From positions 620,001 to 684,000 of the forward strand of contig NZ_JASTLB010000001.1 of the NCBI RefSeq assembly GCF_030499535.1: a stretch of DNA of 64,000 nucleotides. The letters run 5' to 3'. The stretch comes from Streptomyces sp. TG1A-8 (GTDB lineage: Bacteria > Actinomycetota > Actinomycetes > Streptomycetales > Streptomycetaceae). The translations under genes were made by a program, and so were the position numbers. This document shows positions 2,339-8,283 of this stretch, in pieces; the first letter of the stretch is position 1, and each line of letters begins with the position of its first letter. The notes beneath the pieces were generated by a model. It made no database searches, was not told the origin of the DNA, and worked only from the letters and a program-made list of their open reading frames with translations.

Positions 2339-3199
2339 TCAGGCCGCGGGAACCGGGTCCAGGGCGCCGGACGGAATGGCGGGCAGCAGGCCCTGCTCCG
2401 CGGAGCGGGTCAGCAGCGTGTGCACGGCGTGCAGGCCCTCCTCGCCGAGGTCGGCGGTGAAGTGGTTGACGTACAGGCCGATGTGCTGGTCGATGACGTC
2501 GGCGTCCATTTCCTGCGCGTGCCGCCGCACGTAGGAGCGGCACAGGCCCGGTGCGGCCCACGCGGCGCGGACGGAGTCGCGGGCGGCCCGGGCCAGCCGG
2601 GCGACGTTCGCGTCGCCCAGGGCGCGGCGGGCGACGATGGCTCCGAGGGGAATGGGCAGGCCCGTCTGCTTCTCCCACTCCTCGCCCATGTCAGCGAGGC
2701 GGTGCAGGGCGAAGCGCTGGTAGGTGAAGCGGGCCTCGTGGATGACGAGTCCGGCGTCCACGCGGCGGTCGCGGACGGCGGGCATGATCTCCTCGAACGG
2801 CAGGACGACGACGTCGCCGACGCCGCCGGGCACGGCGCGGGCGGCCCACAGCCGGAAAAGCAGGTAGGCGGTGGACGTGGTGCTGGGCACGGCGATCCGT
2901 GCTCCGGCCAGGGCGGCCGGTGCGACCGGGTCGGCGGTCAGCACGAGGGGGCCGCAGCCGCGCCCGAGAGCACCGCCGGCCGGGAGCAGGGCGTACTGGT
3001 CGAGGATGTGCGGCAGGACGCCGTAGGAGACCTTGAGGACGTCGAGTTCGCCGCGCCGGGCCTGGCCGTTGGTGACGTCGATGTCGGCGAGGGTGACCTC
3101 CACCTCGGGTGCGTCGGGCAGCAGTCCGTGCGTCCAGGCGTGGAAGACGAACGTGTCGTTCGGGCAGGGAGAGTGCGCCAGGCTGAGCGGTGCCGTCAT
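2339..3199 (-). CDS. mqnD: MqnD, 1,4-dihydroxy-6-naphthoate synthase
   Basis: The 286-residue protein begins MTAPLSLAHSPCPNDTF; the SPCPNDTF signature is typical of MqnD. Family knowledge: MqnD converts cyclic dehypoxanthinylfutalosine to 1,4-dihydroxy-6-naphthoate in the futalosine menaquinone route. It has a periplasmic-binding-protein-like fold but is cytosolic. The ATG at 3197-3199 was chosen because homology begins there and GAAGGA lies at proper spacing. The frame stays open about 107 codons further upstream, but that part looks non-coding. Length is normal for the family. It is divergent from mqnE across a 389-base gap and followed by a strong hairpin. Lying in a PKS cluster with mqnA, C and E, and with mqnB about 59 kb away, it most likely supplies an aromatic precursor rather than housekeeping menaquinone (inference). 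Confidence 0.94.
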   Translation of the reverse strand: MTAPLSLAHSPCPNDTFVFHAWTHGLLPDAPEVEVTLADIDVTNGQARRGELDVLKVSYGVLPHILDQYALLPAGGALGRGCGPLVLTADPVAPAALAGARIAVPSTTSTAYLLFRLWAARAVPGGVGDVVVLPFEEIMPAVRDRRVDAGLVIHEARFTYQRFALHRLADMGEEWEKQTGLPIPLGAIVARRALGDANVARLARAARDSVRAAWAAPGLCRSYVRRHAQEMDADVIDQHIGLYVNHFTADLGEEGLHAVHTLLTRSAEQGLLPAIPSGALDPVPAA

Positions 3200-3405
3200 C
3201 GGTGATCGCGTCCTTCGTCCGGGTGCGGATCGGTTCTGGTGCGGTGAGCCCTCAGCAAAGCCGTTGCGGGTATGGGGTTTTCCCCAGACTGCCGTCCGCG
3301 AAGATGAGGACGCCCCCACCGGCGCGGCGTCGATGTCCGCGTCCGGCAACCGTGGTGGCCGTGGTGCCCGGATCGTTGGCCGGGTGCCGCGGACGCCCGG
3401 CCGAG

Positions 3406-3430
3406 CGGACGACTGCTGCGGAGTCGTCCG
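3406..3430. promoter_or_regulatory. Inverted repeat upstream of mqnE (9-bp arms)
   Basis: The arms cggacgact (3406-3414) and agtcgtccg (3422-3430) are perfect inverted repeats with a 7-base spacer. The site is about 160 bases upstream of the mqnE start. It could be a regulator-binding operator or an RNA hairpin. The sequence cannot tell which. Confidence 0.4.
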
Positions 3431-3442
3431 GGTGCCGCAGCT

Positions 3443-3470
3443 GTTCCGTCCGGCCGTCCCCGGACGGAAC
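3443..3470. promoter_or_regulatory. Inverted repeat upstream of mqnE (11-bp arms)
   Basis: The arms gttccgtccgg (3443-3453) and ccggacggaac (3460-3470) are perfect inverted repeats around a 6-base spacer. It follows the 9-bp repeat by 12 bases and shares the gtccgg core with it. Two related dyads in a divergent promoter region suggest an operator pair or an attenuator (inference). Confidence 0.4.
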
Positions 3471-6032: not shown

Positions 6033-6124
6033 CGCCCGCGTGCCCTCCCCGCCCCTCTCGCCCCGCCCGCCGACCTCCCCCTCCCCCGCCTCTCTCCTCC
6101 GACCCGTCCGGGAGCTGTGCACCG

Positions 6125-7024
6125 ATGACCGAGCAACCCGTCCAGGAGACCGGTCCGTCACCGCGGGTCCGGCGGCGCCGGCCCCGGGTCGGCCACATCC
6201 AGTTCCTCAACTGCCTCCCCCTGTTCTGGGGCCTGGCTCGCACCGGCAGCCTGCTCGACCTGGACCTGCGCACCGACACCCCGGACGGGCTGAACGACGC
6301 GCTGGCCGCCGGGGACCTCGACATCGGGCCGATCAGCCTGGTCGAGTTCCTACGGCACGCGGACGACCTCGTGGCGCTGCCCGACATCGCCGTCGGCAGC
6401 GACGGGGACGTCATGTCCTGCCTGATCGTCAGCCAGGTGCCGCTGGAGGAGCTGGACGGACAGCCGGTCGCCCTCGGCTCGACCAGCCGCACCTCGGTGC
6501 GGCTGGCCCAGCTGCTGCTGGCCGAACGGATCGGCGTCACACCCCGCTACCACGTCTGCCCGCCCGACCTGCGCACCATGATGACCGGGGCGCGGGCGGC
6601 GGTGGTCATCGGCGACGCCGCCCTGCGCGCCGCGCTGCACGAGGCGCCCCGGATGGGCCTGCAGGTGCACGACCTCGGCCGGATGTGGAAGGACTGGACC
6701 GGACTGCCGTTCGTGTTCGCGGTGTTCGCCGCGCGGCGCGACTTCCTCACCCGGGAACCCGACCTGGTGCACCGCGTCCACGCCGATCTGCTGGCCTCGC
6801 GCGACCTGTCGCTGTCGGAGGTGGCCAAGGTGTGCGAACAGGCCTCCCAGTGGGAGGAGTTCGACGCCGCGACGCTGGAGCGCTACTACACGACGGCTCT
6901 CGACTTCCGCCTCGGCTCCGAACAACTGGCCGGAATAGCGGAGTTCGCGCGCCGGGTGGGCGGCGAGGCCGAGGGGTTCCCGCCCGACGTGCAGGTCCGG
7001 CTGCTCACCCCGTCCCCCGTATGA
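6125..7024 (+). CDS. mqnA: MqnA, chorismate dehydratase
   Basis: The 299-residue protein carries the MqnA hallmarks: VGHIQFLNCLPLFWGL at the N-terminal end of the fold, then GLNDALAAGDLDIGPISLVE and GSTSRTSVRL. Family knowledge: MqnA removes water from chorismate to give 3-[(1-carboxyvinyl)oxy]benzoate, the first committed step of the futalosine pathway. It has the same periplasmic-binding-protein fold as MqnD. The ATG at 6125 is preceded by GGGAG. The stop TGA (7022-7024) overlaps an ATG at 7021-7023, so mqnA and mqnC are tightly linked and probably cotranscribed. The arginine-rich N-terminal extension before VGHIQ is a little longer than usual. Confidence 0.94.
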   Translation: MTEQPVQETGPSPRVRRRRPRVGHIQFLNCLPLFWGLARTGSLLDLDLRTDTPDGLNDALAAGDLDIGPISLVEFLRHADDLVALPDIAVGSDGDVMSCLIVSQVPLEELDGQPVALGSTSRTSVRLAQLLLAERIGVTPRYHVCPPDLRTMMTGARAAVVIGDAALRAALHEAPRMGLQVHDLGRMWKDWTGLPFVFAVFAARRDFLTREPDLVHRVHADLLASRDLSLSEVAKVCEQASQWEEFDAATLERYYTTALDFRLGSEQLAGIAEFARRVGGEAEGFPPDVQVRLLTPSPV

Positions 7025-7062
7025 CCTCGCTCCCATCCGCTAAGACCGGAAAGGCCGGCACC

Positions 7063-8283
7063 ATGCCCCCAACCCCGCAGCCCGAACCCGCTTCCACCGA
7101 CATCGCAGCCGTGCTCGAGCGAGCGGCGGCGGGCGGACGCATCACGCCCGAGGAGGCGCTCGTCCTGTACCGCGACGCCCCGCTGCACGCGCTGGGCGCC
7201 GCGGCGGACGCCGTGCGGCGCCGCAGGTACGCGGGTAGCGAGCACATCGCGACGTACATCATCGAGCGGAACATCAACTACACGAACGTGTGTGTCACGG
7301 CGTGCCGGTTCTGTGCCTTCTACGCGGCTCCGAAGGACACGGAGAAGGGCTGGACCCGCGACCTGGAGGACATCCTGCGCCGGTGCGCGGAGACGGTCGA
7401 GCTGGGCGGCACGCAGATCATGTTCCAGGGCGGTCACCACCCGGACTACGGGGTGGAGTACTACGAGGAGCACTTCTCGGCGATCAAGAAGGAGTTCCCG
7501 CAGCTCGTCATCCACAGTCTGGGGGCGAGCGAGGTGGAGCACATGGCCCGGATCAGCAAGGTGCCGGTGGAGGAGGCGATCGCGCGCATCCACGCGGCCG
7601 GTCTGGACTCCTTCGCGGGGGCGGGTGCCGAGCTGCTGCCGGAGCGTCCGCGCAAGGCGATCGCGCCGCTGAAGGAGTCCGGCGAGCGGTGGCTGGAGAT
7701 CATGGAGACCGCCCACCGCCTGGGGGTGGAGTCCACCACGACGATGCTGATGGGCACGGGGGAGACGAACGCCGAGCGCATCGAGCACCTGCGGATGATC
7801 CGGGACGTGCAGGACCGCACGGGTGGTTTCCGCGCGTTCATTCCGTACACGTACCAGCCGGAGAACAACCACCTGAAGGGCCGTACGCAGGCGACGCTGT
7901 TCGAGTACCTGCGGATGATCGCGATCGCCCGCCTGTTCCTGGACAACGTCCCGCACATCCAGGGCTCGTGGCTGACCACGGGCAAGGAGGTCGGCCAGCT
8001 CTCGCTGCACTACGGCGCCGACGACCTCGGCTCCGTCATGCTGGAGGAGAACGTGGTCTCCTCCGCCGGCGCCAGGCACCGCTCCAACCTCCTGGAGCTG
8101 ATCGCCCTGATCCGGGCCGCCGGCCGCGTCCCGGCGCAGCGCTCCACGACGTACGAGCACCTCGTCGTCCACGAGGACCCGGCCGACGACCCCGTCGACG
8201 ACCGCGTGGTCTCCCACGTCTCCTCCACGGCGATCGCCGGCGGCACGGCCCACCCCGAGCTGAAGCTGATCGCCGCCACCTGA
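7063..8283 (+). CDS. mqnC: MqnC, cyclic dehypoxanthinylfutalosine synthase (radical SAM)
   Basis: This radical-SAM enzyme has CVTACRFC (Cys77, Cys81, Cys84 counted from 7063), preceded by IIERNINYTN. It also carries IMFQGGHHPDYGVEYYE and RTGGFRAFIPYTYQPENN, all typical of MqnC. Family knowledge: it cyclises dehypoxanthinylfutalosine to the spiro-bicyclic cyclic form, using a SAM-derived radical. Two starts are possible. The ATG at 7021 overlaps the mqnA stop and would add 14 residues. The ATG at 7063 has GGAAAGG (7048-7054) at ideal spacing and is preferred (406 residues). It is followed by an 11-bp hairpin. With mqnA, mqnD, mqnE and mqnB it completes the set to 1,4-dihydroxy-6-naphthoate. 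Confidence 0.94.
   Translation: MPPTPQPEPASTDIAAVLERAAAGGRITPEEALVLYRDAPLHALGAAADAVRRRRYAGSEHIATYIIERNINYTNVCVTACRFCAFYAAPKDTEKGWTRDLEDILRRCAETVELGGTQIMFQGGHHPDYGVEYYEEHFSAIKKEFPQLVIHSLGASEVEHMARISKVPVEEAIARIHAAGLDSFAGAGAELLPERPRKAIAPLKESGERWLEIMETAHRLGVESTTTMLMGTGETNAERIEHLRMIRDVQDRTGGFRAFIPYTYQPENNHLKGRTQATLFEYLRMIAIARLFLDNVPHIQGSWLTTGKEVGQLSLHYGADDLGSVMLEENVVSSAGARHRSNLLELIALIRAAGRVPAQRSTTYEHLVVHEDPADDPVDDRVVSHVSSTAIAGGTAHPELKLIAAT

Follow-up and report, generated by a model that had tools for sequence, protein, structure and literature searches.

The analyzed window, a 64,000-nucleotide stretch of the Streptomyces sp. TG1A-8 genome, covers part of a type I polyketide synthase (PKS) cluster of approximately 130 kb. 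This cluster encloses mqnD, mqnE, mqnA, and mqnC (2339–8283) as well as mqnB (61168–61914), as a first-pass annotation of the window had claimed and as family scores and nearest solved structures confirm. The radical SAM enzyme aminofutalosine synthase (mqnE, 3589–4752, plus strand) contains the CxxxCxxC motif and scores 542.9 bits on TIGR03700 (cut-off 434.55). A second radical SAM enzyme, cyclic dehypoxanthinyl futalosine synthase (mqnC, approximately 7111–8283, plus strand), scores 463.7 on TIGR03699 (cut-off 428.1), and futalosine hydrolase (mqnB, minus strand) scores 208.8 on TIGR03664 (cut-off 124.7). Chorismate dehydratase (mqnA, 6128–7024, plus strand) and 1,4-dihydroxy-6-naphthoate synthase (mqnD, 2339–3199, minus strand, 243.9 bits) both exceed the cut-off of PF02621; the mqnD reading frame is open to 3520, but 3199 is probably the start. 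Neither protein matched an NCBIfam model, whether scanned as a long ORF or as a single gene, and the two were distinguished by their nearest solved structures, the chorismate dehydratase SCO4506 for MqnA (E = 2.5e-124) and TTHA1568 for MqnD (5.9e-65). With MqnB, MqnC, and MqnE above their NCBIfam cut-offs, and MqnA and MqnD identified by PF02621 and structure matches, the futalosine pathway set in the cluster is complete. The order of the mqn genes is identical in S. rishiriensis and, apart from inserted genes, in Streptantibioticus silvisoli, where the gene inserted after mqnD and before mqnE matches no Pfam family. Five steps of a single pathway in one cluster, in an order kept in both relatives, are not a product of chance.

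A genome search recovered a second, housekeeping set of mqnA, mqnB, mqnC, mqnD, and mqnE, which rules out that the cluster genes are the only copies. Genes for UbiA and UbiD adjoin the housekeeping mqnE, and a gene for a UbiE-type methyltransferase adjoins the housekeeping mqnC. No gene for these later menaquinone steps was found among the annotated and scanned genes of the cluster, in agreement with the first-pass annotation. Its proposal that a primary pathway had been copied into secondary metabolism is borne out by the second full set with UbiA, UbiD, and UbiE genes beside it. The cluster versions of MqnA, MqnB, and MqnD are 70.6, 61.7, and 68.7% identical to the genome's other copies (74–76% DNA identity in local alignments). 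The DNA of mqnC and mqnE, on the other hand, is 99.7% identical to that of the housekeeping copies, with 3 differences in 1173 nucleotides for mqnC and 4 in 1164 for mqnE.

Second copies of housekeeping genes within antibiotic clusters frequently confer resistance. The cluster mqn genes could in principle be drug-insensitive spares that protect the producer, or they could provide extra menaquinone capacity, for which near identity of two of the five genes to the housekeeping copies would be needed. We regard either role, in place of one in making the product, as most improbable. Two enzymes so similar to the housekeeping ones would not work as drug-insensitive spares, and the cluster holds all five steps, yet none of the later ones was found there. 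Furthermore, deletion of gonM4 in the gon cluster of Streptomyces caniferus (PM100117/PM100118) takes away most of the naphthoquinone-bearing product, according to passages of the gon report (PMC4763440).

Between mqnE and mqnA lie genes on the plus strand for a 4Fe-4S ferredoxin (4836–5138, PF13459) and a free-standing thioesterase (5157–6032, PF00975), the counterparts of GonF2 and GonT. Downstream of mqnC, also on the plus strand, follow a DrrA-type ABC transporter ATPase (8387–9385, above the TIGR01188 cut-off), a DrrB-like ABC-2 type permease (9385–10233, PF01061), a CoA ligase (CAL)-DH-KR-ACP protein corresponding to GonSL (10245–14297; PF00501, PF21089, PF00550), and a KASIII-like protein corresponding to GonS1/S2 (14377–15411), which is likely an acyltransferase. 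The CAL protein has intact YTSGTTGRPKG and GFDSL motifs and no KS. Its DH and KR are degenerate: the DH lacks the HxxxGxxxxP motif and the catalytic Asp of active DH domains, and the domain scan detected no KR catalytic domain. A nucleotidyltransferase on the minus strand (61911–62978, PF00483), probably a dTDP-glucose synthase for deoxysugar supply, adjoins mqnB. The cluster also contains two glycosyltransferases, deoxysugar genes, two P450s, and two PF02458 acyltransferases.

All PKS genes in the window are on the minus strand. The start of g17 (1–2223, continuing left to window coordinate −8147) encodes predicted modules 6–7 (KS-AT-DH-KR-ACP and KS-AT-KR-ACP), the first with a DH that lacks the active-site motif. 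Domain parsing assigned predicted modules 17–18 to g28 (15498–26378), which ends in a thioesterase (PF00975, 88 bits, final 320 residues), and predicted modules 15–16 to g29 (26420–36595). Predicted modules 10–14 are encoded by g30 (36701–60964), the third of them with a DH and no KR. The 3′ end of g33 (63045–64000, continuing to 77984) belongs to predicted modules 3–5. Beyond the window, g34 (78032–90541) carries a KSQ-AT-ACP loading module with DSAQSS where DTACSS is expected. In the predicted order, g34-g33-g17-g16-g30-g29-g28, the domain parse gives 18 modules and a terminal thioesterase. The DH of module 12 is redundant, and methylmalonyl-type AT motifs (YASH; YGSH at M13) occur in the loading module, M1–M4, M13, and M17. 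This module count matches the 32-membered notonesomycin class.

These features bear on the proposal of the first-pass annotation that the CAL-ACP protein loads 1,4-dihydroxy-6-naphthoyl as the starter unit of the macrolide PKS. The CAL-ACP protein is indeed located between PKS genes, and other PKSs, such as those of the rifamycin and candicidin types, do load aryl starters by a CAL-ACP. Nevertheless, the KSQ module of g34 led us to reject naphthoate as the PKS starter, and the line falls outside the class of aryl-CoA starter-unit PKSs, which have an aryl loading module feeding their first KS and no other loading module. The CAL protein lacks a KS, and the count of 18 modules equals that given for notonesomycin. 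Gon strains mutated in the corresponding genes continue to produce the macrolide, minus the naphthoquinone, as described in PMC4763440. The starter proposal is very unlikely on this evidence; naphthoate is very probably not what begins the macrolide chain. What does stand is a duplicated futalosine route in secondary metabolism that leads as far as 1,4-dihydroxy-6-naphthoate and has a CoA-ligase protein next to it. Against the role as starter unit stand the loading module, the missing KS, and the degenerate DH and KR of that protein, as well as the nearest relative of the KASIII protein, ChlB3.

ChlB3 from chlorothricin biosynthesis (7eqi; 2.2e-67, 230.9 bits) is the best solved relative of the KASIII protein. 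CerJ (cervimycin) and DpsC (daunorubicin; 4xs7) are also among the best solved relatives, with near full-length alignments. All three are KASIII-like enzymes with acyltransferase roles. The Cys (QQGC) and GH motifs of ChlB3 are shared by the cluster protein. FabH-type chains lower in the ranking score 37 bits or less, and the score on the NCBIfam fabH model is 59.2 (cut-off 292.1), with every other NCBIfam KASIII cut-off likewise far out of reach. This protein is similar to ChlB3/CerJ-type enzymes over its full length and is nearer to them than to condensing FabH. The next matches after ChlB3 are two chains deposited as 3-oxoacyl-ACP synthases (210.0 and 202.2 bits), ahead of CerJ (154.3), and for this reason the protein might instead catalyze condensation. 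The substrates of ChlB3, CerJ, and DpsC differ; naphthoyl transfer is a putative function of the cluster protein.

Although the first-pass annotation knew of no described precedent with confidence, one exists in the gon cluster of the antitumour compound PM100117, with its genes gonM1–M4 and gene-deletion data (PMC4763440). According to the parts of that report available to us, gon shares with the present cluster copies of mqnA, mqnC, mqnD, and mqnE with a ferredoxin and a thioesterase, a CAL-DH-KR-ACP ligase, KASIII, an ABC transporter, deoxysugar genes, and further mqnA, mqnB, mqnC, and mqnD copies elsewhere in the genome (PMC4763440). Both have a KSQ macrolide PKS with a matching propionate pattern (LD, M1–M4, M14, and M19 in gon versus LD, M1–M4, M13, and M17 here, in the predicted module order), a KR-less DH module as the third in a five-module gene, and a degenerate DH in M6. 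Strains with gonM4, gonMT, gonSL, gonS1, or gonS2 deleted, or with gonP8 disrupted, yielded analogues without the naphthoquinone (PMC4763440). In a gonE mutant, the naphthoquinone chromophore built up in free form, along with its precursor from the stage preceding propionate addition. In contrast to gon as tabulated there, the present cluster contains mqnB, encodes 18 modules instead of the 20 of gon, whose ring is 36-membered, and has two PF02458 acyltransferases, of which the gon table has none.

Further differences count against an analogous role of the cluster reported here. Gene calls and Pfam or domain scans over window coordinates −40 to +95 kb found neither a GonP8-like extension PKS nor a GonMT-like methyltransferase, both of which gon needs, and there is one KASIII gene where gon has two. 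It is conceivable, though improbable, that the naphthoate is chain-extended in trans before attachment, as by GonP8. The enzyme could be a PKS encoded on contig C4 (199731–208064; CAL-ACP-KS-AT-DH-KR-ACP-TE), which has a GonP8-like domain order and could act in trans, or another one. Such an extension is consistent with GonP8-like PKSs that adjoin the CAL gene in genome G013 (two modules), S. marokkonensis, S. malachitofuscus, and TP-A0356; no such gene adjoins it in the compared stretches of S. silvisoli and S. sporangiiformans. The C4 CAL, at 48% identity the only other close CAL in the genome, is just 48–50% identical to the GonP8 and GonSL groups, while these two groups share 57–65% identity across the compared pairs. 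The C4 protein also carries its own terminal thioesterase, a domain that the consulted sections of PMC4763440 do not report for GonP8, and contig C4 has no match to an mqn family.

Other known systems help to frame the product. The notonesomycin cluster (nbc) of Streptomyces sp. A793, as described in the accessible text, likewise has 18 PKS modules, of which module 12 contains a redundant DH, as well as P450s, a PapA5-like acyltransferase, and deoxysugars bearing an aromatic acid at C-37, but there the aromatic acid, 4-amino-3-hydroxybenzoate, comes from a chorismate lyase route (PMC7081687). Neither "futalosine" nor "menaquinone", searched at word starts, occurs in the main text of that paper. 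A cluster of Streptomyces sp. NEAU-S7GS2, described on the gon model, combines MqnA, MqnC, and MqnD with a synthetase-ligase; its futalosine hydrolase gene is far from the cluster and its PKS has more modules than gon, as far as the relevant passages state (PMC6746918). Among known structures, langkolide from Streptomyces sp. Acta 3062 comes closest to the predicted product; it is described as a 32-membered ring with an acetyl side chain, acylated at C-23, and with a 1,4-naphthoquinone carried by a disaccharide at C-37. The literature passages on langkolide that were examined revealed no gene cluster, and the likeness is one of structure. A langkolide-like macrolide is the most likely product.

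We therefore consider it quite likely that the extra mqnABCDE set supplies 1,4-dihydroxy-6-naphthoate for a naphthoquinone arm on the sugar chain of the macrolide, whose ring is predicted to be 32-membered, and not for priming the PKS. MqnA, MqnE, MqnB, MqnC, and MqnD would convert chorismate to 1,4-dihydroxy-6-naphthoate, possibly with the cluster ferredoxin as electron donor. The CAL domain may adenylate this acid and load it onto its own ACP, with the adjoining DH and KR as probable relics. From there, the ChlB3-like KASIII protein could pass the aroyl group on, either to another carrier or to a hydroxyl of a deoxysugar. The macrolactone would be built separately by the KSQ-primed line. Tailoring is attributable to the two glycosyltransferases, the deoxysugar genes, the two P450s, and the two PF02458 acyltransferases, one of which may add the acetyl or malonyl ester known from langkolide and notonesomycin.

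How did mqnC and mqnE come to be nearly identical to their housekeeping copies? The window's own genome fits gene conversion and replacement by a fresh copy equally well. Synteny of the cluster extends across the compared stretch of genome G013 and, in Streptantibioticus silvisoli, within its contig. In related clusters, site tests, which assume independent sites and include three closely related G013-like genomes, identified mqnC and mqnE as mosaics. These mosaics suggest that the two radical SAM genes are kept alike by repeated gene conversion; together with the conserved gene order, they led us to reject the idea that independent recent duplication alone made the copies so similar. In a sample of 392 genomes from one genus, two MqnA matches occur in 24, and 8 genomes, including the window's own, are of the window's type. 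The MqnC count leaves out G345, for which no MqnC was listed at the threshold used; G102 shows one MqnE, which covers part of the model only, and no second MqnB. Conversion has its limits: the mqnC copies of G296 do not pair (89.4%), and of the six genomes whose second MqnE is of another type, G298 alone shows a high-identity pair (99.3%). In G112, the two MqnE group as sisters in the tree at an identity of only 86.8%, whereas the MqnC copies match at 99.7%; the MqnE of G171, G188, G198, and G401 do not pair. A limited literature search revealed, among the matches listed, no published precedent for gene conversion in the futalosine pathway.

From these observations it is probable that a pair of vitamin-pathway genes is shared between primary metabolism and an antibiotic cluster by repeated gene conversion. 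In every lineage of the window's type in which both copies were examined, the cluster mqnE, and with one exception also mqnC, appears to have been overwritten by the essential housekeeping copy or to have overwritten it; the trees are compatible with either direction. Respiratory-quinone and antibiotic genes would form a single evolving pool, with mqnA, mqnB, and mqnD drifting apart as old paralogues. The mosaic pairs offer a clean natural case for studying sequence exchange between primary and secondary enzyme copies. The cluster is also a complete mqnABCDE source for making 1,4-dihydroxy-6-naphthoate. More broadly, the recruitment of menaquinone chemistry known from PM100117 is part of a wider, modular theme: judging from gene content, relatives seem to differ in whether zero, one, or two PKS modules extend the arm, which leads to testable predictions of structure.

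All five futalosine-pathway genes named in the first-pass annotation, mqnD, mqnE, mqnA and mqnC (2339–8283) and mqnB (61168–61914), were confirmed at the positions assigned to them. In profile searches, the MqnE, MqnC and MqnB proteins of the cluster exceed curated NCBIfam cut-offs; MqnA and MqnD gave no match in this NCBIfam search and exceed the PF02621 cut-off in the Pfam search. The nearest solved structures of the latter two are the chorismate dehydratase SCO4506 (MqnA) and TTHA1568 (MqnD). Interspersed with the mqn genes or alongside them are a ferredoxin gene, a gene for a free-standing thioesterase, the genes of a DrrA/DrrB transporter, and those encoding a CoA ligase-DH-KR-ACP protein (CAL protein) and a KASIII-like protein. 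On contig C1, the genome (7.66 Mb in 4 contigs) carries every mqn gene a second time, with housekeeping MqnB and MqnD encoded at 4.05 Mb, MqnA at 3.08 Mb, mqnC at 3051247–3052419 (3.05 Mb) and mqnE at 3098260–3099423 (3.10 Mb). UbiA and UbiD genes adjoin the housekeeping mqnE, and a UbiE-type methyltransferase gene adjoins the housekeeping mqnC. Among the cluster genes scanned we found none of these three types, in agreement with the earlier remark that no later menaquinone genes are visible. The cluster genes are neither the only mqn set in this genome nor, as far as the scanned genes extend, accompanied by later menaquinone genes. Given the complete second set elsewhere in the genome, the proposal that the futalosine pathway was recruited into the cluster is right.

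The two mqn sets have diverged unevenly. Protein identity between cluster and housekeeping copies is 70.6% for MqnA, 61.7% for MqnB and 68.7% for MqnD, versus 99.5% for MqnE and 99.2% for MqnC. At the DNA level, mqnE (3589–4752) differs from its housekeeping copy at 4 of 1164 positions and mqnC (7111–8283) at 3 of 1173 (99.7% identity each), and in both cases the similarity breaks off no more than about 25 bases from either end of the ORF. The corresponding values for mqnA, mqnB and mqnD are 74–76% in local alignments and 69–74% in codon alignments. Phylogenetic trees set the cluster versions of MqnA, MqnB and MqnD apart from the housekeeping ones with a support of 1.000; this split recurs in five of five genomes for MqnA and MqnD, and in all four genomes with two copies for MqnB. 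In the MqnE trees, six of the nine genomes with two copies and a second set of the window's kind pair the cluster protein with their own housekeeping copy; the other three, which are close relatives, form one joint clade. For MqnC, four of eight genomes of that kind with two copies pair, three fall into the same joint clade and one (G296) is unpaired. Where the second copy is of another kind, pairing is mostly lacking; the exceptions are G298 (both genes) and G112 (MqnC).

Site patterns point in the same direction. Paralogue-type sites outnumber within-genome sites for mqnA and mqnD in 12 of 12 genome-pair comparisons, versus the reverse for mqnE and mqnC, again in 12 of 12. Between the group of genome G013 and S. 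rishiriensis, sites in mqnE and mqnC are mosaic. In the G013 comparison, every paralogue-type site of mqnE lies before position 414 of 1164 and every such site of mqnC after position 772 of 1170, with a few within-genome sites also in these parts; the G153 comparison adds two paralogue-type sites near the start of mqnC. A runs test on this mosaic gave the lowest permutation p it can return, 1e-4, in all six comparisons, which are not independent of each other. Recurrent gene conversion of both radical-SAM genes would give such patterns. A simple cause may be that mqnC and mqnE stayed alike enough for homologous recombination and that mqnA, mqnB and mqnD did not.

As to the function of the naphthoate, the first-pass annotation knew of no precedent; one exists in the PM100117/PM100118 (gon) cluster of Streptomyces caniferus, where gonM1–M4 code for MqnA, C, E and D (PMC4763440). 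Deletion of gonM4, gonMT (methyltransferase), gonSL (ligase), gonS1 or gonS2 (KASIII), or disruption of the PKS gene gonP8, led to compounds without naphthoquinone; the two that were solved both came from the gonP8 mutant, and the product traces left in the gonM4 mutant were credited by the authors to a second mqnD (PMC4763440). A gonE mutant accumulated the naphthoquinone chromophore in free form, along with its precursor (PMC5103430). The gon model has also been applied to another strain (PMC6746918). With these reports, the core idea is already published. The suggested role of the naphthoate as starter unit is very probably wrong, as the PKS gene g34 carries a KSQ-AT-ACP loading module (motif DSAQSS).

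Judged by active-site motifs that we take to be diagnostic, the CAL protein (10245–14297) has an intact CAL core (YTSGTTGRPKG) and ACP serine motif (GFDSL); its DH lacks HxxxGxxxxP and the catalytic Asp (HPALLEGAL there), and the domain scan detected no KR catalytic domain. The authors of the gon study draw the same picture of GonSL, with active CAL and ACP and substituted KR and DH (PMC4763440). The best solved relative of the KASIII protein (14377–15411) is ChlB3 (230.9 bits), followed by 9z38 and 7vyu, deposited as 3-oxoacyl-ACP synthases, and then by CerJ and the daunorubicin enzyme 4xs7; the remaining FabH-type chains score at most 37 bits. The protein also falls far below the NCBIfam KASIII cut-offs. 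ChlB3 and CerJ act as acyltransferases. By this kinship, the KASIII protein likely catalyzes aroyl transfer rather than decarboxylative condensation.

The macrolide itself would be assembled by seven PKS genes spanning about −17.8 to +90.5 kb in window coordinates, which parse into 18 extension modules, the module number of 32-membered notonesomycin (PMC7081687), and end in a thioesterase domain on g28 (PF00975, 88 bits). A putative order of these genes in the assembly line follows from parallels with gon and notonesomycin. Methylmalonyl-type AT motifs occur in the loading module, modules 1–4 and the predicted modules 13 (YGSH) and 17 (YASH); the propionate ATs of gon are LD, M1–M4, M14 and M19 (PMC4763440). 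In the gene with five modules, the third one contains a DH and no KR, resembling gon M13 (PMC4763440) and the redundant DH in notonesomycin module 12 (PMC7081687). We conclude that the cluster is a real, intact variant of the PM100117 type, and its predicted product is likely a langkolide-like 32-membered naphthoquinone macrolide.

In g34, g33, g17, g16 and g30 (window coordinates −17763 to 90541), DNA identity is 96.8–99.7% among four AT domains of the propionate type and 96.0–99.6% among five of the malonyl type, which suggests AT homogenization within the cluster. Two PF02458 transferases at its left end (L017:516–1880 and L017:13099–14439) do not figure in the gon gene table (PMC4763440) and may introduce ester side chains. 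Further left (−59329 to −45579), two gene sets resemble, by eye, phenylacetyl-CoA epoxidase operons.

In contrast to gon, mqnB lies inside the cluster, and no counterpart of GonP8 or GonMT was found among the cluster genes scanned. Contig C4 (518 kb) of the same genome encodes a CAL-ACP-KS-AT-DH-KR-ACP-TE protein (199731–208064) with GonP8-like domain order, yet its CAL is only 48–50% identical and it has its own thioesterase. Two MqnA matches (E 1e-50) occur in 24 of 392 genomes sampled from the genus; among the matches listed, at least eight of the 392, the window's included, have a second MqnA of the window's kind (at least 82% identity). S. rishiriensis keeps the order mqnD-mqnE-ferredoxin-thioesterase-mqnA-mqnC-drrA-CAL and has its cluster-type mqnB on a different contig. 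S. silvisoli (Streptantibioticus) has mqnB inside the cluster and the same order with two genes inserted between ferredoxin and thioesterase and one between mqnD and mqnE (L161:12079–13107, 342 residues, no Pfam family). The G013 cluster also includes mqnB and is syntenic with the window's across the whole stretch compared, its g17 counterpart being called as two pieces. There, a CAL protein of just 836 residues is encoded next to a GonP8-like CAL-ACP-KS PKS with two extension modules (C1:8035192–8047716).

A GonP8-like CAL-KS gene also stands beside the CAL gene in S. marokkonensis, S. malachitofuscus and TP-A0356, and is absent from the stretches compared in S. sporangiiformans, S. silvisoli and the window. 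With this gene absent, one-module (gon) or two-module in relatives, extension of the naphthoquinone arm seems to depend on lineage and to involve zero, one (gon) or two modules. For the window, the prediction is an unextended arm, in which 1,4-naphthoquinone-6-carboxylate would be esterified directly. The two-module PKS of G013 would mean a longer naphthoquinone arm.
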